DNA of 64,000 nt from Ktedonobacterales bacterium (GTDB lineage: Bacteria > Chloroflexota > Ktedonobacteria > Ktedonobacterales > DATBGS01). The notes beneath the pieces are model-generated. The model did not search any database and was not told the DNA's origin. It worked only from the letters and a program-made list of their open reading frames with translations. Of the stretch, positions 19,508-60,912 are shown piece by piece (within the stretch, counting starts at the first letter, position 1; each line of letters opens with the position of its first letter). The translations under genes were made by a program, and so were the position numbers. The DNA is taken from positions 62,001 to 126,000 of the forward strand of contig DATBHW010000003.1 of assembly GCA_036557285.1 (NCBI GenBank), in the 5' to 3' direction.

Positions 19508-19785
19508 ATGGGGGTGCCGCTCGTACCGCCGCCGTCCCGGCGGCCAGCGTTGGCCTGCTGGCGCCGTGGCCCGGAGGGCGCACGCTCGCCCTGGCGCAGC
19601 GGTGGCCGCCGGGAGGGACGCGCGAGCGACCACCGGGAGCGAGGACCTCTCGCTCGACGAGGCATAGCCGAGGCAAGCGGCAGAGACGCGCGAGCGAGGC
19701 GCAGCCGAGCGAGCATGGCCGCGCCCAGCGCGGTCAAGCGGCTCTGGCGAAGCCCTTCCCGAAGGGAGGCGGCGCTACAAACAAG
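19508..19785. repeat. Composite dispersed palindromic repeat
   Basis: A GC-rich intergenic block that starts with a GTACCGCCGCCGTCC-type left end and finishes with GGCGGCGCTACAA, the right end seen in other copies. The interior holds the GCGAGCGACC/GAGCGAGGACC segment and the CAGCCGAGGCAAGCG-type core shared with the copies at 32761, 42264 and 57840. Open frames through it have repeat composition and no protein family, so none is called. The remaining spacer 19786-19925 holds only the upstream region of the next gene. Confidence 0.65.
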
Positions 19786-31835: not shown

Positions 31836-31881
31836 TGTGCCTCTCCCACATCCTCTTTCGAGGGACAGCTACCTCATCCTG

Positions 31882-31910
31882 TATATCGTGAGTTGAATCA
31901 AAAGCGTCAC
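31882..31910 (-). promoter_or_regulatory. Candidate ECF-type promoter, proximal copy
   Basis: Minus-strand GTGACG (31905-31910), 16 bases, CGATATA (31882-31888). It lies about 45 bases before the ECF sigma gene in a 58-base repeat unit (31856-31913) that recurs at 32011-32068. The spacing fits ECF promoters better than sigma70 promoters. Confidence 0.5.
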
Positions 31911-31949
31911 ACCGCCGAGGCGGTCATGCCGCAGCCCCACGAAAAGAGA

Positions 31950-32010
31950 GGCCAGGATAGGAGCCACGCGAAGTCCCTTTCTGTGAACTAGCTCACAGAT
32001 GCGTTGCCGC
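31950..32010. promoter_or_regulatory. Conserved element B with CRP-type palindrome
   Basis: Near copy of the element at 29351-29411. The core CTGTGA-ACTAGC-TCACAG spans 31981-31998 and again fits TGTGA-N6-TCACA exactly. It lies between the two ECF-type promoter copies upstream of the sigma gene. Confidence 0.6.
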
Positions 32011-32036
32011 TTTCGAGAGATAGCTACCTCATCGTG

Positions 32037-32065
32037 TATATCGTGAGTTGAATCAAAAACGTCAC
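32037..32065 (-). promoter_or_regulatory. Candidate ECF-type promoter, distal copy
   Basis: Minus-strand GTGACG (32060-32065), 16 bases, CGATATA (32037-32043), identical in motif and spacing to the copy at 31882-31910, 155 bases away. The 58-base units differ at only about four positions. Confidence 0.5.
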
Positions 32066-32205
32066 ACCCTGCTGCTTCCGGCAGGCGTAGACTCCAGAAG
32101 CCAGAGTGTGCCTTCCATCGCCCGCGTCAGCCCTTGCCAGAGCGAGTAGCAGGCTTCCTGGGGAACTTCGATCAGCAGCGAATCAATCAGGCCGGGGTCG
32201 AACAT
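32062..32205 (-). pseudogene. Truncated paralogue of the 174-residue protein at 55937-56461
   Basis: A 47-codon frame from ATG 32203-32205 to a TGA that overlaps the distal ECF-type promoter copy. Residues 11-43 (LIEVPQEACYSLWQGLTRAM, then EGTLWLLESTPAG) align with FVEVPEEAQTALHRGLTAAI / EGALDLWERTPSG of the intact protein without gaps. Everything after that point in the intact protein is missing. It is best read as a gene fragment, although a short functional peptide cannot be excluded. The region 32206-32620 upstream shows no convincing gene. Confidence 0.5.
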
Positions 32206-34182: not shown

Positions 34183-36246
34183 TTAGCGCGCGTCCCACAC
34201 CTGCACCGTTCGATCAGCGCCGCCAGAAGCAATGTGTTTGCCATCCGGCGACCAGGCAATCGCGCTGACCGGCCCCATATGACCTTGATAGTACATCCGC
34301 GCCTCGCCCGTATCCGCATCCCAGACCTGCGCCGTCCCATCATCACCCCCGGAGGCCAGGTGCAGGCCATCGGGCGACCACGCCACCGCCAGCACTCTCT
34401 GGCTATGGCCGTGATACATGAGCAGGGGCTTATCATTCTCCCACATCCGCACCGTCCGAATGCCAAAATGCACCCAGGAGCGCGTTCCAACAGGCTTCTG
34501 AGCATCCGCTTCCCACACCTGCACCACCTGATCGCAAGCAGAGGCAATCCGCTTGCCATCGGGCGACCAGGCCAGGGCGCGCACGGGCGACCACTCCACC
34601 GAGACCCCGTTCCATCTATCGCCGCGACAGGTTAAGAGGGGCTGCGCGGTGGCAGCATCCCACACCTGCACCGTCCCATCCGCGCTGCCCGAAGCAATAC
34701 GGCTGCCATCGGGCGACCAGGCTACCGCGTGTATCGTATTGGCGTGCCTGCTATAAGAGGAGAGAGTAGTCCCTCTGGCAGCATCCCAGACGTGTACGAT
34801 GTCATCCCAGCGGGAAAGCAGGCCGCCGCTCGCCGAAGCCACGCGCTGCCCATCGGGCGACCAGTCCACCGCCAGTATCCACTTGAAATGGACGGTATAC
34901 TTGAGGAGCTTTTTCCCCGTTTCGGCGTCCAACACCAGCACCGGATTATGCCACCAGGAGAGCGGGCTGGCCCCCCCGACGACGATCAGCCCGCCATCGG
35001 GCGACCAGTCCACCGCCAGCACCCATTTCAACGCCGCTCGATACGTCCAGAGTGTCTTGCCAGCCGTCACATCCCAGACCTGCGCCGTTCGATCAGCGCC
35101 GCCAGAAACGATACGAGCGCCATCGGGCGACCACGCCAGCGTATTCACCCGGCCCCTATGCCCCTTATAAGTGGGAAGCACCCCTTTCAGCACCCGCATG
35201 CCCACACCTCTCAGCAACACGCTCCGTCGCGTGTCGGCTGGGGGCGCAGCCTGCTGCTGAGAAGGCTGCGGCTGGCCCGCGCCGACGATCTGCCTGCTGG
35301 CGCGCTGGCCGTTGGCTGCCCCAGCCGCCAGCGCCTCCAATTCCCGTTTCACCTCCGCCATGCTGGCCGGGCGGCTGGCCTCATCCAACTGCACCATCTG
35401 CGCGATCAGCCCGCCAATCCCCGCCAGGGCGGGATCGCTCAGCGGCGCGAAACGAAAGGGCGTCTCGGAAGGATCATTGCCCGTCAGCAGATGATGCAGC
35501 AGCGCGCCCAGCCCATAAATGTCCGAGCGCGGCGTCGTCTGCGCCTTGCCATATTGTTCCGGCGCGGCATACCCTGGCGAGCCAAAAGCGACGGTATCTT
35601 TCGCCTGCCCTGGCTTGAACAGGCGCGCGATCCCAAAATCCACCAGATGCGGCATGTCATCCGCCGTCAGCAGCACATTTGAGGGCTTCAGATCGCGGAA
35701 AATAATCGGCGGCTGGCGCGTATGTAAATACTCCAGCACGGCACAGAGGTGCAGGCCAATCTCAAGCGCGCGTCCCAGCGGCAGGCGTCCCCCTGGCGCT
35801 TTGCCCAGATACGCCTCCAGCGTCTCCCCCTCAATAAAATCCATCACCAGATACCAGCGCCCATCCTCGCTGAAATGATCATAAATGCGCGGCAGATTCG
35901 GATGCGCCAGCCCCGCCAGCAGCAGCGCCTCGCGGCGAAACGCCTCTGTCGCCTCTTGCAGTTCCTGGGATCGCAGGCCATTGGGCTGCATCTCTTTGAC
36001 CGCCACCAGCCGATTGCCCAGATCGCAATCTTCGGCCTGATAGACCGCGCCAAAACCGCCTTTGCCCACCTGGGCCACCAGGCGATAACGCTGCTTCAAC
36101 AGTGAGTGGGGGGCTGGCGGCGCGCTGGGCGCGCCAGACGTGGCAGGAGCGGCAGCCAGCGGAGGCTGCCCACACGCAAAGCACGACACGGCCCCCGGCG
36201 GGTTGGCCGCGCCGCACGTCGCGCAATATTCCAGGGAAGAACTCAT
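34183..36246 (-). CDS. Zinc-ribbon Ser/Thr protein kinase with WD40 propeller
   Basis: 687 residues. A zinc ribbon (CATCGAANPPGAVSCFACG) at residues 8-26 leads to a Hanks-type kinase at about 50-310: glycine loop VGKGGFGAVYQAED, VAVKEM lysine, catalytic loop IIFRDLKPSNVLL (Phe where most have His before RD), DFGIARLF, and activation segment FGSPGYAAPEQYG. The last 340 residues hold about seven WD40 blades (LAWSPDGARIVSGGADRTAQ and similar). No membrane helix is seen. The architecture suggests a soluble kinase scaffolded through its propeller. The neighbouring kinase at 36791 has the same N-terminal half but ends in a membrane helix. Confidence 0.88.
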   Translation of the reverse strand: MSSSLEYCATCGAANPPGAVSCFACGQPPLAAAPATSGAPSAPPAPHSLLKQRYRLVAQVGKGGFGAVYQAEDCDLGNRLVAVKEMQPNGLRSQELQEATEAFRREALLLAGLAHPNLPRIYDHFSEDGRWYLVMDFIEGETLEAYLGKAPGGRLPLGRALEIGLHLCAVLEYLHTRQPPIIFRDLKPSNVLLTADDMPHLVDFGIARLFKPGQAKDTVAFGSPGYAAPEQYGKAQTTPRSDIYGLGALLHHLLTGNDPSETPFRFAPLSDPALAGIGGLIAQMVQLDEASRPASMAEVKRELEALAAGAANGQRASRQIVGAGQPQPSQQQAAPPADTRRSVLLRGVGMRVLKGVLPTYKGHRGRVNTLAWSPDGARIVSGGADRTAQVWDVTAGKTLWTYRAALKWVLAVDWSPDGGLIVVGGASPLSWWHNPVLVLDAETGKKLLKYTVHFKWILAVDWSPDGQRVASASGGLLSRWDDIVHVWDAARGTTLSSYSRHANTIHAVAWSPDGSRIASGSADGTVQVWDAATAQPLLTCRGDRWNGVSVEWSPVRALAWSPDGKRIASACDQVVQVWEADAQKPVGTRSWVHFGIRTVRMWENDKPLLMYHGHSQRVLAVAWSPDGLHLASGGDDGTAQVWDADTGEARMYYQGHMGPVSAIAWSPDGKHIASGGADRTVQVWDAR

Positions 36247-36790: not shown

Positions 36791-38122
36791 CTAATAACCA
36801 GGGTAAGGCGGAGGCGCTAGTTGCGCCGCCAACCCAAAAAGCAGAAGCATAAGAAGGAGGATAAACACAACCGCCCCTATTAAAAAAACTATCCACAGGT
36901 TTTGCCGACCAGGCCAGCGTCTCCTGGCGCGAGCCGGAGGCGGCGCTACCGGAGTCAGCGCGGGCGCTGGATACGGCTGGGGTGGCCCCACCACGCGCAT
37001 AGAACCGGTTGCCTGAAACGGCGGCATCGTTCCAGTCGGCGGCGGAAGCCAGTGTGGCCCCGTAGCCGTCGGAAAGGTGGCGGTCGGGTAGGGTGGCCGC
37101 ATGGCGGGCAAGAACCCCGTCGCGGTCTGATACGGTGGGAACGGCATCGAAGGCGCTGGCCCCCGCTGGCGTTCGGCCCAGGCGGCCAGCAGGCGCTCCA
37201 TTTCGCGCTTGACAATCCCCATGCTCGGCGGGCGTTTGTATTCATCCAGATTGACCATATGACCGATAAATGTCCCCAGGCCCGTTGGCCGGGGCATCGT
37301 CAGCGGCGCGAAGCGGAACGGCGTATCGGATGGGTCATTACCCGTCACCAGATAATGCAGCAGCGCGCCCAGGCTAAAGACATCCGAGCGCGGCGTTGTC
37401 TGCGCCTTGCCATATTGTTCCGGCGCGGCATAGCCCGGCGATCCAAAGGCCATCGTATCTTTCTGCTGCCCTGGCTTGAACAGGCGCGCAATCCCAAAGT
37501 CAATCAGATAGACGGCCCCATCAGGCGTCATCATCACATTCGAGGGCTTCAGATCGCGGAAGATAATCGGCGGCTGGCGCGTATGCAGATATTCCAGCAC
37601 GTCACACAGCTTGACGCCAAGCTGAAGCGCCTCCTTCACCGTCAGATGCTTCTTCATCGAACGATCCAGGCGCTTCTCCAGCGTCTCACCCTCGATAAAC
37701 TCCATCACCAGATACCAGTGTCCGCCCTCGCTGAAGTGATCATAGATGCGCGGCAGCCCCGGGTGCGACAGGCCCGCCAGCAAAATCGCCTCCTGATGAA
37801 AAGCTTCTGTCGCCTCCTGAAGTTCCTGAGTAGCCAGGCCGCTGTAACTCATCTCCTTGACCGCCACCAGCCGGTTGCCCAACTCACGATCCTCAGCTTG
37901 ATAGACCGCGCCAAAACCGCCTTCACCAAGGCGCTTCACAATCTGGTAGCGTTGCCGAATCAACAGAATGGGCAGTTCTCTGGTTGACCTGGGCGCTGCC
38001 GACGACAACAGCGGCTCCAGCACCGATGCTGCCAGCATTGACTCCCCGCAGGCGAAGCACACCACCGCCTCCGGCTCGTTCTTCCCGCCACATTTAGGAC
38101 AGTACGCAGAGGAAGAGGTCAT
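36791..38122 (-). CDS. Zinc-ribbon Ser/Thr protein kinase with C-terminal membrane helix
   Basis: 443 residues from ATG 38120-38122. Zinc ribbon CPKCGGKNEPEAVVCFACG, then kinase motifs VKRLGEGGFGAVYQAEDREL, VAVKEM, IIFRDLKPSNVMM, VYLIDFGIARLF and FGSPGYAAPEQYG. A Pro/Thr-rich linker of about 90 residues leads to one hydrophobic helix near the C-terminus (IVFLIGAVVFILLLMLLLFGL). It is nearly parallel to the WD40 kinase downstream and probably arose by duplication, then exchanged its output region. AAGGAG lies 12 bases before the ATG, rather far. Confidence 0.87.
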   Translation of the reverse strand: MTSSSAYCPKCGGKNEPEAVVCFACGESMLAASVLEPLLSSAAPRSTRELPILLIRQRYQIVKRLGEGGFGAVYQAEDRELGNRLVAVKEMSYSGLATQELQEATEAFHQEAILLAGLSHPGLPRIYDHFSEGGHWYLVMEFIEGETLEKRLDRSMKKHLTVKEALQLGVKLCDVLEYLHTRQPPIIFRDLKPSNVMMTPDGAVYLIDFGIARLFKPGQQKDTMAFGSPGYAAPEQYGKAQTTPRSDVFSLGALLHYLVTGNDPSDTPFRFAPLTMPRPTGLGTFIGHMVNLDEYKRPPSMGIVKREMERLLAAWAERQRGPAPSMPFPPYQTATGFLPAMRPPYPTATFPTATGPHWLPPPTGTMPPFQATGSMRVVGPPQPYPAPALTPVAPPPARARRRWPGRQNLWIVFLIGAVVFILLLMLLLFGLAAQLAPPPYPGY

Positions 38123-41250: not shown

Positions 41251-41297
41251 TCATGCGCGTTTTCACTGTCTAAATGTCTATAAGAAAGGACGATCCT

Positions 41298-43145
41298 ATG
41301 ACTGGCGAGGAGTTACGGCAATCTTTTCTCACCTTCTTTGCGGAGCGCGGCCATGCCATCATCCCCTCAGCGCCGCTCGTACCCGAAAACGACCCGACCG
41401 CCCTATTCATCAGCGCCGGGATGCAGCCGCTGGTCCCCTATCTGCTCGGCGAAAGCCATCCCAAGGGTCGGCGGCTGGCGGACGTGCAAAAATGTCTGCG
41501 CACCGACGACATCGAAGAAGTGGGCGACATCAGCCACAACACCTTCTTTGAGATGCTGGGCTTCTGGTCCCTGGGCGATTACTGGAAACAGGACTCGCTG
41601 CGCTGGACACTGGACTGGTTCACTCGCGTGCTGGGGCTGGAGCAGGAGCGCATCTCCTTCACCGTCTTTGCGGGCGACGACGACGCCCCCCGCGACGACG
41701 AGGCCGCGCAGGTCTGGCTGAGCCTGGGCATCCCCCAGGAGCGCATCTATTACCTGCCCAAAAAAGACAACTGGTGGGGACCGGCGGGCAAGACTGGCCC
41801 CTGCGGCCCCGACTCCGAACTCTTCTACGACACAGGCCGCCCCAAACACGGCCCCGATTGCCAGCCCGGCTGCGGCTGCGGCAAATATATCGAGATCGGC
41901 AACAACGTCTTCCTGCAATACACCAAAACGACTGAAGGCGCGTTCAAGCCGCTGGCGCAGCGCAGCATAGATGTCGGCCTGGGTCTGGAGCGCACCCTTT
42001 GTGTCATTACCCACGTTGAGGATGTCTACACCACTGATCTTTTTGCGCCCATCGTCGAGCGCATCCACGCCCTGTGCCAGCGCGGCCAGGCGTTCCTCGC
42101 GCCAGAGCAAGAGCAGCGCCTGACACGCATCACCGCCGATCACCTGCGCGCGGCCACCTTTATGATCGCCGATGGCGTCACGCCCAGCAACGTCGAGCAG
42201 GGCTACATCTGCCGCCGCTTGATTCGCCGCGCGGTGCGCTGCGGCCACGAACTGGGCATCCCAGGCGCGGGCGCGCGAGCGAGCGCAGCGAGCGAGACGA
42301 CGGGGCACCAGCCGAGGCAAGCGCCCGCCGCCGAAATAGCGCGCGTGGTCATCAGCCACTATGGGCAGAGTTACCCTGAACTCACCCAGCGCCAGCAGCA
42401 GATTCTCGCCGCGCTAGGGCGCGAAGAAGAACGCTTCAGCCAGACGCTGGCGCGCGGGCTGCGCGAGTTCCAGAAGCTAGAGGAAGGGTTGCGCCAGCGC
42501 GGCGAAAATCTGCTGGCGGGCGAAGCCGTCTTCCGCCTCTTCGACACGTTTGGCTTCCCGCCGACCCTGACAGCGGAACTGGCCCAGGAACGCGGCCTGA
42601 GCGTTGACCTGGATGGCTTCGATCTCCTCTTCAAGCAGCATCAGGAACGCTCCCGCCAGGCCAACGAAGGCCGCTTTGCTGGCGGCCTGGCTGACCACAG
42701 CGAGCGCACCACCCAACTGCACACCGCCACCCACCTGCTTCAACAGGCGCTGCGCGACGTGCTGGGTCCGCATGTGCGCCAGATGGGCAGCAACATCACC
42801 ACCGAGCGGCTGCGCTTCGACTTCGCGCACCCCAAGAAACTGACACCCGAAGAAGTCGGGCGCGTCGAAGAGATCGTCAATCAGCAGATCGCGCGCGACC
42901 TTCAGACACAGATGCAGATGATGCCTTTGCAGCAGGCGCTTGATCAGGGCGCGCTCGCCTTCTTTGGCGAACGCTACGCCGATACCGTCAAAGTCTACAA
43001 AATTGGCGATTATTCGATGGAGGTCTGCGGCGGCCCCCACGTCTCCCATACCGGCGGCCTGGGGCGCTTCAAGATCACCAGAGCCGAATCCATCGGCCAG
43101 GGCGTGCAGCGCGTCCGCGCCGACTTGATCGAAGAGCCAGCCTAA
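41298..43145 (+). CDS. alaS: Alanyl-tRNA synthetase, short form lacking the C-Ala domain
   Basis: 615 residues from ATG 41298 (AAAGGA seven bases upstream). It charges tRNA-Ala. Class II catalytic motifs appear in FISAGMQPLVPYLLGE, DVQKCLRTDDIEEVGDISHN and VGLGLERTLCVI. The editing domain has HTATHLLQQALRDVLG and CGGPHVSHTGGLGRFKI, that is HxxxH and CxxxH. The chain ends just after the editing domain, about 250 residues shorter than the common 870-residue enzyme, so the C-terminal oligomerisation/C-Ala domain is absent. The GMQPLVPYLLGE type resembles the short AlaRS class seen in some Chloroflexota and candidate-phyla bacteria. Residues about 323-345 are an in-frame copy of a dispersed repeat. 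Controlled by the T-box upstream. Confidence 0.93.
   Translation: MTGEELRQSFLTFFAERGHAIIPSAPLVPENDPTALFISAGMQPLVPYLLGESHPKGRRLADVQKCLRTDDIEEVGDISHNTFFEMLGFWSLGDYWKQDSLRWTLDWFTRVLGLEQERISFTVFAGDDDAPRDDEAAQVWLSLGIPQERIYYLPKKDNWWGPAGKTGPCGPDSELFYDTGRPKHGPDCQPGCGCGKYIEIGNNVFLQYTKTTEGAFKPLAQRSIDVGLGLERTLCVITHVEDVYTTDLFAPIVERIHALCQRGQAFLAPEQEQRLTRITADHLRAATFMIADGVTPSNVEQGYICRRLIRRAVRCGHELGIPGAGARASAASETTGHQPRQAPAAEIARVVISHYGQSYPELTQRQQQILAALGREEERFSQTLARGLREFQKLEEGLRQRGENLLAGEAVFRLFDTFGFPPTLTAELAQERGLSVDLDGFDLLFKQHQERSRQANEGRFAGGLADHSERTTQLHTATHLLQQALRDVLGPHVRQMGSNITTERLRFDFAHPKKLTPEEVGRVEEIVNQQIARDLQTQMQMMPLQQALDQGALAFFGERYADTVKVYKIGDYSMEVCGGPHVSHTGGLGRFKITRAESIGQGVQRVRADLIEEPA
42264..42332 (+). 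repeat. In-frame dispersed repeat inside alaS
   Basis: 69 bases, 23 codons (translating to GAGARASAASETTGHQPRQA and PAA). It matches the intergenic copy at 32761-32829 at 67 of 69 bases. It sits between the conserved RRAVRCGHELGIP segment and EIARVVISHYGQSYPEL, where other AlaRS have a short variable loop. Confidence 0.9.
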
Positions 43146-50787: not shown

Positions 50788-50842
50788 TGTAGCGCCGCCT
50801 TCCAGGCGGCTCGTCGCTGGCCGCCTGGAAGGCGGCGCTACA
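50788..50842. repeat. Dispersed palindrome, perfect 23-bp arms
   Basis: TGTAGCGCCGCCTTCCAGGC plus GGC at 50788-50810 is exactly inverted at 50820-50842 around a 9-base loop. This is the simplest and cleanest member of the family. A possible TATACT -10 for the next gene follows at about 50873. Confidence 0.8.
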
Positions 50843-55273: not shown

Positions 55274-55458
55274 CCTGTACCGCCGCCGTCCCTGGCGGCG
55301 CAACGCCGCGCCAGTGCGAACGCTCTCCCTGAAGTGCAGCGTTCCAGCAGGCCAGCGGGGGCCGCCAGAGACGGCGGCGGTACAGGCCCCTTCAGCCCCC
55401 CTGCCGCCTGGAAGGCGGCGCTACAGGCCCCTCCTGCCGCCTGGAAGGCGGCGCTACA
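55274..55458. repeat. Dispersed element with 17-bp terminal inverted repeats and two tandem half-copies
   Basis: CCTGTACCGCCGCCGTC at 55274-55290 is exactly inverted at 55370-55386 (113-bp element). Two identical 25-base units starting CTGCCGCCTGGAAGGCGGCG follow at 55401-55425 and 55434-55458. Nothing else is recognised in 55130-55541. Confidence 0.7.
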
Positions 55459-57795: not shown

Positions 57796-58060
57796 CACTT
57801 GTAGCGCCGCCTCCCTTCGGGAAGGGCCGCTTGCCTCGGCTGTTGCCCCGTCCTCTCGCTCCCGTTGGTCGCTCGCGCGTCCCTCTTGGCGGCTGGACGC
57901 TGGCCTGCTGGTCCGCTGGCCTGGAGGGCGAACGCTCGCCCTGGCGCAGCGGTGGCCGCCTGGAAGGCGGCGCTACAAGTGGACTTCCCGCCCAATAGGC
58001 GCGCGAGGGTGAGCGTTCGCCCTGGCGGCGAACGGTGGGGTCTGGAAGGCGGCGCTGCAC
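57796..58060. repeat. Dispersed element with 16-bp terminal inverted repeats
   Basis: CACTTGTAGCGCCGCC at 57796-57811 is exactly inverted at 57966-57981, the same ends as the copy at 36355. The interior has the GCTTGCCTCGGCTG / CCCCGTCCTCTCGC segment, the reverse complement of the 69-base core of alaS and 32761. A further right-end unit lies near 58040-58060. Confidence 0.75.
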
Positions 58061-59396: not shown

Positions 59397-60395
59397 TTAT
59401 ATGAGCGCCCCGGTCAGGTAGCGCGTCCACAGATCAATCGCCAGCGCCTCGGCGTCGGCCTCGACGCCAGCGCGGGCAAAGTAGCGGCAGACCCGCGCGA
59501 TGTCGCGGGCCAGCAGCGTAAAGACATCATCCGGGTTGTAGCGGGGGTCCACCGCCTGGGCAAAATCAATGATCGTGGCCGCGCCCGCGGCTCGCGCACC
59601 CGCGCCTGCGGCGGCGGGCGCTTGCCTCGGCTGGGCCTCGGCATTCTCGCCTGCGGTTCGCGCACCCGCGCCTGCGGCTCGCGCACCCGCGCCCTGCCAG
59701 TAGAGGATGTTGTACTCCGAGAGGTCGCCATGCACGCGGTCACACGCCAGGAACAGCTCGATATTACGCAGGATGGCGTCGAAGAGCGGCTGCGCCTCCT
59801 CCGGCGGCAGGTCCACTTCACGCAAGAGCGGCGCGGCCTCCGCTTCATCGCCGATGTAGTCCATCAGCACCGCGTTGCCGATTTGCGCCAGCGGGCAGGG
59901 TACATCGGCTCCCGCCTCGTAGAGCAGGCGCTGCGTCTTAAACTCATGCTCGATCCAGTTCGTGACCTGCGCGGCGCGCCCGCGCTCGGTCTTTTTGGTC
60001 GCCTTCCGCCGACGGCGGCTGTCTGCCACGACCCGCCCGCCCACGTCACGTATGACGCGGCTTTCCCGATAGACGGCATCGTGTTTCAGGCTGCGAAACA
60101 TGCGCGGGCGATAGACTTTCGCCGCCAGCAGTTCCCTGCCGGTCGCAGGATCAGCGACGCAGCAGTAGACCGTCGCCTCTTTGCCACTTTTGATGACGCG
60201 CAGCACGTCGGTAATCAGGTCTTGCTCGTAGAACTGAGCCAGCGATGAGAGTACCCAGGGTTTGTCGCGCTGACCGGCAAGAAACGTCGGGGAGAACTCC
60301 GGCTTGCCGCCGCCCTCCAGGGATTGCTCCTGAAGCCATCGCTGAACGTCGGCGCTGCTCTCGTAGCTGGTCTTCATAGTTGGTTTCTGGTCCAT
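59397..60395 (-). CDS. RIO-family Ser/Thr kinase with repeat insertion in the catalytic hairpin
   Basis: 332 residues from ATG 60393-60395 (AAGGA five bases upstream). RIO1-type features: the nucleotide loop VIKSGKEATVYCCVAD, lysine in LAAKVYRPRMFRSLK, hinge VLMDYIGD, catalytic loop RVHGDLSEYNIL and metal-binding IIDFAQAVDPRYNPD. Between the last two motifs, where RIO kinases have a short turn, there are 38 extra residues rich in GAGARAAGA with PRQAPAAAGAG. These are the translation of a dispersed repeat (59580-59693). All catalytic residues remain. The role of bacterial RIO kinases is poorly defined; ribosome maturation is known for eukaryotic and archaeal ones. Confidence 0.9.
   Translation of the reverse strand: MDQKPTMKTSYESSADVQRWLQEQSLEGGGKPEFSPTFLAGQRDKPWVLSSLAQFYEQDLITDVLRVIKSGKEATVYCCVADPATGRELLAAKVYRPRMFRSLKHDAVYRESRVIRDVGGRVVADSRRRRKATKKTERGRAAQVTNWIEHEFKTQRLLYEAGADVPCPLAQIGNAVLMDYIGDEAEAAPLLREVDLPPEEAQPLFDAILRNIELFLACDRVHGDLSEYNILYWQGAGARAAGAGARTAGENAEAQPRQAPAAAGAGARAAGAATIIDFAQAVDPRYNPDDVFTLLARDIARVCRYFARAGVEADAEALAIDLWTRYLTGALI
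59580..59693 (-). repeat. In-frame dispersed repeat inside the RIO kinase gene
   Basis: 114 bases, 38 codons. In gene orientation it holds three near-identical units of GGCGCGGGTGCGCGAGCC and the block CAGCCGAGGCAAGCGCCCGC plus CGCC, the same block that ends the copies at 32761 and 42264. It is therefore a rearranged member of the same family. Confidence 0.85.
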
Positions 60396-60912
60396 AACCA
60401 TCCTTCGCATCTTTGGAGGTTAGATAATTTCGGAGCAGGGTTGAGAGTGAGAAGCTCCCCCTGGGGACCAGCGGCGTCTGCACGCCGAGCGTGAGGATGG
60501 CAACGCAGGATGAGTTACGAAGCGGAGGACACTTGTGGAAGGGGCCGGAAAGAACGGGCACAAAAAACGACCACCAAGCGCCTGAGCGCGCCTGTGGCCG
60601 CAGCATCTGCCGGACGAGTGGAGGACCAGTGTCAGCGCGCCTGGCGTCTGCCGATGGGCGCGGGCACTGCTTTAAGCCAAACTCTGAGGGCTGGTGAGCG
60701 TTATTTAGGCGGGGTTACAAGGCGCACTCTCTCCTATGTTGGTCACACCGCTGGTGCGGGGAGCAGTAGCCAAGAACGCTGTCATGTGCGCCTCCTTGAA
60801 ATGAATGGAAAGTCATTGGAAAACTATCGAACGGGACTCTGGGACGCTGGCAGGATTGTAGCATGGGCAGGCGGGAGGTGTCAAGGGGCTGACAGGAACC
60901 TCTGGCATGATT
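60396..60912. other. Gene-free interval
   Basis: The 517 bases between the divergent RIO kinase and ArsR-DUF2087 genes contain several open frames, but none has both a ribosome site and protein-like composition. No strong promoter, known RNA or member of the dispersed repeat family was found. Confidence 0.5.

Follow-up and report, generated by a model that had tools for sequence, protein, structure and literature searches.

A short alanyl-tRNA synthetase gene (alaS) from a Ktedonobacterales bacterium contains a block of sequence that recurs between genes in the same 64,000-nucleotide stretch of DNA (the window). We asked what kind of element has entered the gene, how it may have travelled there and how a protein comes to accommodate it. 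The features concerned are:

41274–43145, + strand: alaS, short-form alanyl-tRNA synthetase (AlaRS) of the PRK01584 type, with the catalytic and editing part and without the C-Ala domain
42264–42332, + strand: repeat copy in short alaS, encoding GAGARASAASETTGHQPRQAPAA
32761–32829, + strand: intergenic repeat copy, followed by GTAG

Sequence comparison confirmed that the two copies are identical at 67 of 69 positions (97%), as reported in the first-pass annotation. A little upstream of the intergenic copy sits a 62-nt direct repeat (31852–31913 and 32007–32068; 92% alike, 155 nt apart). The same region of the window also holds two segments that are 81–86% alike at a distance of 1861 nt (35439–36062 and 37300–37923), probably two paralogous genes, and a gene with several diverged repeats at a spacing of 126–150 nt (34193–35178, − strand) that looks WD40-like by eye.

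The alaS frame is open over 623 codons and the repeat block is read through in frame. In a profile search the product scores 781.9 bits against the short AlaRS family model NF002436/PRK01584 (cut-off 529); it combines the AlaRS catalytic fold with an AlaX-like editing part and, by alignment, retains the residues that the family conserves for catalysis and editing. The loop that carries the insert is near-constant in length among 32 short-AlaRS orthologs from bacteria and archaea, and all 32 are without the insert residues. The first-pass annotation had the repeat adding exactly 23 codons; this is the size of the homologous block, and the net gain relative to the orthologs is 18 residues, the figure obtained also against an 80% identical ortholog in genome G016. 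The alaS copy is also without the right-hand direct repeat present at other in-gene copies, so that it looks as if about 6 codons were lost at that junction. Placement of the insert in a loop was borne out both by the orthologs and by the AlphaFold model, in which pLDDT averages 84 over the protein and about 56 over the insert: the insert is predicted to form a low-confidence loop joining two helices (332–339 and 351–363), as a flexible loop would. The folding energy of the alaS copy is unexceptional relative to shuffled sequences (z 0.15). Given its 97% identity to a non-coding copy, the insertion looks recent.

The same genome encodes a second, full-length AlaRS (C49:10090–12165, 926-codon frame), and both forms are likewise encoded in those relatives that have the short one. 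The status of alaS as an essential gene, implied earlier, is therefore unsupported, and the short gene might be a decaying accessory copy whose insert would be uninformative about tolerance in a working enzyme. In one related Ktedonobacteria genome (G011:C126:28347–30128; L094), short alaS carries an in-frame TAG in the editing part, at a position that is Gln in the two closest sequences; decay, recoding or sequencing error could each account for it, and on the first of these it would favor the accessory-copy reading. We nevertheless regard decay as unlikely, in view of the open frame, the retained catalytic and editing residues and the family score of 782 bits, and of the conserved enzymes found among the other in-frame hosts, such as a RIO kinase.

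That the block is a dispersed repeat, as first proposed, is evident from the 5-megabase host genome. Whole-genome searches returned dozens of matches to the 69-base block with E-values down to 1e-27, 128 matches to the 5′ module (23/24 bases) at two mismatches or fewer (0 for a reversed control pattern) and 93 matches to the 3′ motif. Among 400 genomes of the phylum searched, including 47 of the order, the 24-base module was found in none of the 399 others, a direct observation that restricts the family to one genome of this set. No match to the family was found in the viral contigs or plasmids searched.

Many of the other copies lie in frame within genes. Besides alaS, at least 11 genes carry in-frame copies to which orthologs, solved relatives or a paralog have no counterpart, so that empty sites are directly observed for twelve genes. 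One of these hosts lies in the window:

59397–60410, − strand: RIO-type protein kinase gene
59610–59672, − strand: diverged repeat copy in the RIO-type kinase gene, net gain of 36 codons relative to orthologs
59587–59606, 59653–59672 and 59674–59693: short GGCGCGGGTGCGCGAGCCGC units flanking the RIO copy

The 36-residue repeat-derived insert, which RIO kinase orthologs do not have, occupies the turn that leads from the catalytic HGDLSEYN segment to the IDF metal-binding segment. The remaining hosts with an empty site are:

C6: acyl-CoA dehydrogenase, +24 codons, empty site in solved structures
C12: AidB-type acyl-CoA dehydrogenase, +24 codons, clean empty site
C18: xanthine dehydrogenase FAD subunit, +24 codons, clean empty site
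C33: enoyl-CoA hydratase, +24 codons, clean empty site
C2: methyltransferase-like protein, +24 codons, clean empty site
C71: S9 peptidase, +29 codons, clean empty site
C25: radical SAM protein, two units, +70 codons, clean empty site
C63: DUF2079 membrane protein, +44 to 48 codons, clean empty site
C3: two neighbouring paralogous acyltransferases with reciprocal inserts of 27 codons (antisense) and 24 codons

The net gain is exactly 24 codons in five single-unit hosts, the acyltransferase not counted. In-frame copies also occur in genes for AcuC/histone deacetylase, MarR, a STAND ATPase, DinG helicase, GH2 (named by eye), DISARM DrmA and Nth, for which a clean empty site was not obtained and which stand outside the twelve. 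The copy in the DISARM helicase gene drmA (C7:14898; L292) lies in a likely linker. At C80:4058 and C82:3328, copies supply the C-terminal tails of apparent TypA and DnaE (DNA polymerase III alpha).

Two other accounts of the alaS copy bear on this set of hosts. The assembly comprises 82 contigs, such repeats are a frequent cause of assembly breaks and certain contigs end in repeat copies, all of which would suit an artefact of metagenome assembly. On either side of the copy, however, the alaS frame runs on and homology is normal, and many other genes show this pattern too, with differing module variants and, in the paralog pair, reciprocal empty sites; an artefact is thus hardly credible. The insert could also have taken on a function in AlaRS or other hosts, for example in regulation or partner binding, and the frames kept in at least 12 genes and the inserts in both paralogous acyltransferases would fit such a role. 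We consider recruitment very improbable, since the same peptide appears at unrelated loops of unrelated proteins, the alaS copy looks recent, being so close to a non-coding copy, and the AlaRS model assigns the insert no confident structure. An intein or intron was set aside, the inserts being 18–36 residues long and without splicing parts.

Repeat copies are modular. Each consists of a core, GCGCGAGCG followed by ACCAACGG or AGCGCAGC and then GAGCGAG, with one of several 3′ modules; the core of about 50 nt is set between arms that are complementary inside each copy and different from class to class, giving a 72-nt unit in the gene-dwelling class. The arms thus form terminal inverted repeats, a trait of MITEs, in most copies: over the first six arm bases mean pairing is 4.3, compared with 3.2 in shuffled pairings (shuffle maximum 3.8). 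Consensus classes fold better than shuffled sequences (z −2 to −3.7). At the 72-nt register the units are flanked by direct repeats of 6–14 nt, such as GGCGCGGGC, GCCGAAGGCGCG and GGCCGGAGCGCG; these overlap the element's own ends and are indistinguishable from them, which makes them at most candidate target-site duplications.

Most non-coding copies lie in the loops of palindromes with an end that reads GTAG on the other strand (70 of 83 in the arm class concerned). Examples of such palindromes (REPs) and of non-coding copies in the window are:

57955–57976, + strand: uninterrupted GTAG-type REP, GCCGCCTGGAAGGCGGCGCTAC; the other strand reads GTAG plus stem
50820–50841, 55403–55424 and 55436–55457: further GTAG-type REPs
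57825–57882, − strand: non-coding copy of the arm class typical of GTAG-type REP loops
19620–19678, + strand: non-coding copy of a TAG-bearing subclass, with a stop in one sense frame

The genome also has genes for REP-associated tyrosine transposases (RAYT) at C55:165651, C12:72467 and C38:27074, the first two above the NF047646 cut-off. Eight GTAG-type REPs surround the gene at C55:165651, and the 72-nt unit itself is not among them. The presence of RAYT genes, with REPs around one of them, makes a REP/RAYT system the likeliest mover, and the repeat may be, or may formerly have been, mobilised by this machinery. Within genes, the 72-nt units run into GAA, GCA, GGA and similar triplets and have no clear GTAG tag, so that their recognition by RAYT is at most putative.

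A serious rival, plausible if not probable, is spread without a transposase, through template switching, slippage or gene conversion between GC-rich quasi-palindromes, which would make the copies patchworks of hairpin modules. Copies are indeed strongly modular and nested: several 3′ modules replace one another, the first module can enclose a second (CCGCGACCGAGCG) and the same core bears varied arms, and the arms co-vary with the flank. Clean 24-codon unit insertions look instead like discrete events, since they occur at numerous sites that are unrelated to one another and empty in orthologs, and RAYT genes are present.

How often, then, do insertions preserve the frame? Arm class is associated with gene location: copies with GGCGCGGGY or GGAGC arms lie in genes in 16 of 38 cases, and copies that bear the usual arms of REP loops, AGGGAC or TGGGCT, in 3 of 96 (Fisher's exact test, p ~5e-8, gene-end copies left out). 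Unit length differs in parallel, with a register of 72 nt in genes (81 with the longer core) and 68 or 77 nt in REP loops. A codon-usage scan of 124 loci, which is insensitive and missed several in-gene copies recognised by homology, found no out-of-frame insertion inside a gene. At 13 loci (union of settings) both flanks were coding with one frame through the element; at three, the coding flanks were in differing frames, two of these being the gene ends at C80:4058 and C82:3328 and the third the C-terminal, antisense Nth copy, called at the laxest setting only. As the scan misses many real cases, it lends weak support to the absence of frame-breaking copies.

We dropped the idea that one coding phase is shared by every member of the family: phases 0, 1 and 2 and antisense readings all occur, and with three sense frames used across arm classes a single phase is no family-wide property. 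Copies of the GGCGC class almost always share a single phase, giving GAGARATNGSE...QAPAA, and other classes use other phases. The genes of the window contain 30 sense occurrences of the target-like motif GGCGCGG, of which 20 are in phase 0, a bias that would explain the single reading phase of the GGCGC class and may suffice alone. Tentatively, and with some doubt, frame-preserving insertion could be the usual outcome for a coding-compatible class, with units of 72 and 81 nt that are multiples of three and stop-free and a GGCGCG target mostly in phase 0. If true, this class would continually supply the proteins of one lineage with loop insertions.

Taken together, the alaS insert very probably derives from a non-autonomous, hairpin-forming repeat that spread through the genome and recently entered short alaS, where it lies in frame. 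Its movement may depend, or have depended, on the REP/RAYT machinery of the genome, with GC-rich motifs, GGCGCG for example, as possible targets. Judging from the sequence, the alaS insert is probably translated and tolerated, plausibly because the unit has a length divisible by three, is stop-free and lands in a loop; frame-shifting copies would have been purged by selection.

These results extend protein-invading palindromic repeats to a 5-megabase genome of the Ktedonobacteria type and, with independent in-frame copies and empty sites in sufficient number, open the question of where, and how frequently, insertions are tolerated. The two unit-length classes make the question of a selection filter testable by counting. 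For annotators, the peptide GAGARATNGSE...QAPAA common to unrelated proteins should be read as repeat-derived and as no domain.

Rickettsia and a small number of other bacteria are known to have in-frame palindromic repeats; the repeat family described here is new. We found no earlier description for Ktedonobacteria in the literature, the supplementary table of in-gene REPs of PMC3733652 apart. That paper describes in-frame intragenic REPs in several bacteria, tRNA synthetase genes included, and reports GTAG REPs in Chloroflexi. In-frame fusion to genes is also found for enterobacterial RU elements (PMC2759123, PMC2229807). The Rickettsia palindromic element (RPE), put forward in the first-pass annotation as the precedent, is thus a fair parallel for the phenomenon, and the suggestion that it stands alone does not hold given these REPs and RU elements (PMC3733652; PMC2759123; PMC2229807).

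The RPE is a stem-loop of 105–146 bp, and in the one tested case, gmk, the enzyme that carried it stayed active (PMC2229807). Like the present repeat, it is a short, mostly intergenic palindrome with in-frame copies in conserved protein genes (PMC2229807), and the present family shows this combination of intergenic copies and in-frame insertions. By description, the two differ in phylum, the RPE being specific to Rickettsia and our repeat found, among the genomes searched, only in this one of the Ktedonobacteria type; in size, the unit here being 72 or 81 nt in genes and 68 or 77 nt in REP loops; and in the GC-richness, modular arms and overlap with a GTAG-REP/RAYT system seen here. Cyanobacterial short dispersed repeats, which are very short, mobile and found within and between genes, offer a likeness that serves as a lead only.

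RU elements (ERIC/RU-1, RU-2, RU-3) and bacterial MITEs resemble our repeat as non-autonomous inverted repeats with open frames fused to genes (PMC2759123, PMC2229807). They are longer (103–168 bp) and belong to an unrelated lineage, and for our repeat a search of the Y1 transposase family identified no autonomous partner with the same ends. GTAG REP/RAYT systems (REPtrons) share with this genome the RAYT genes, and most repeat copies sit in REP loops. A GTAG REP is a palindrome of 20–40 bp with a terminal GTAG, a description that fits the host REPs around many of the other copies; the gene-dwelling unit, in contrast, is longer, is without a clear GTAG tag and has a multi-hairpin core.
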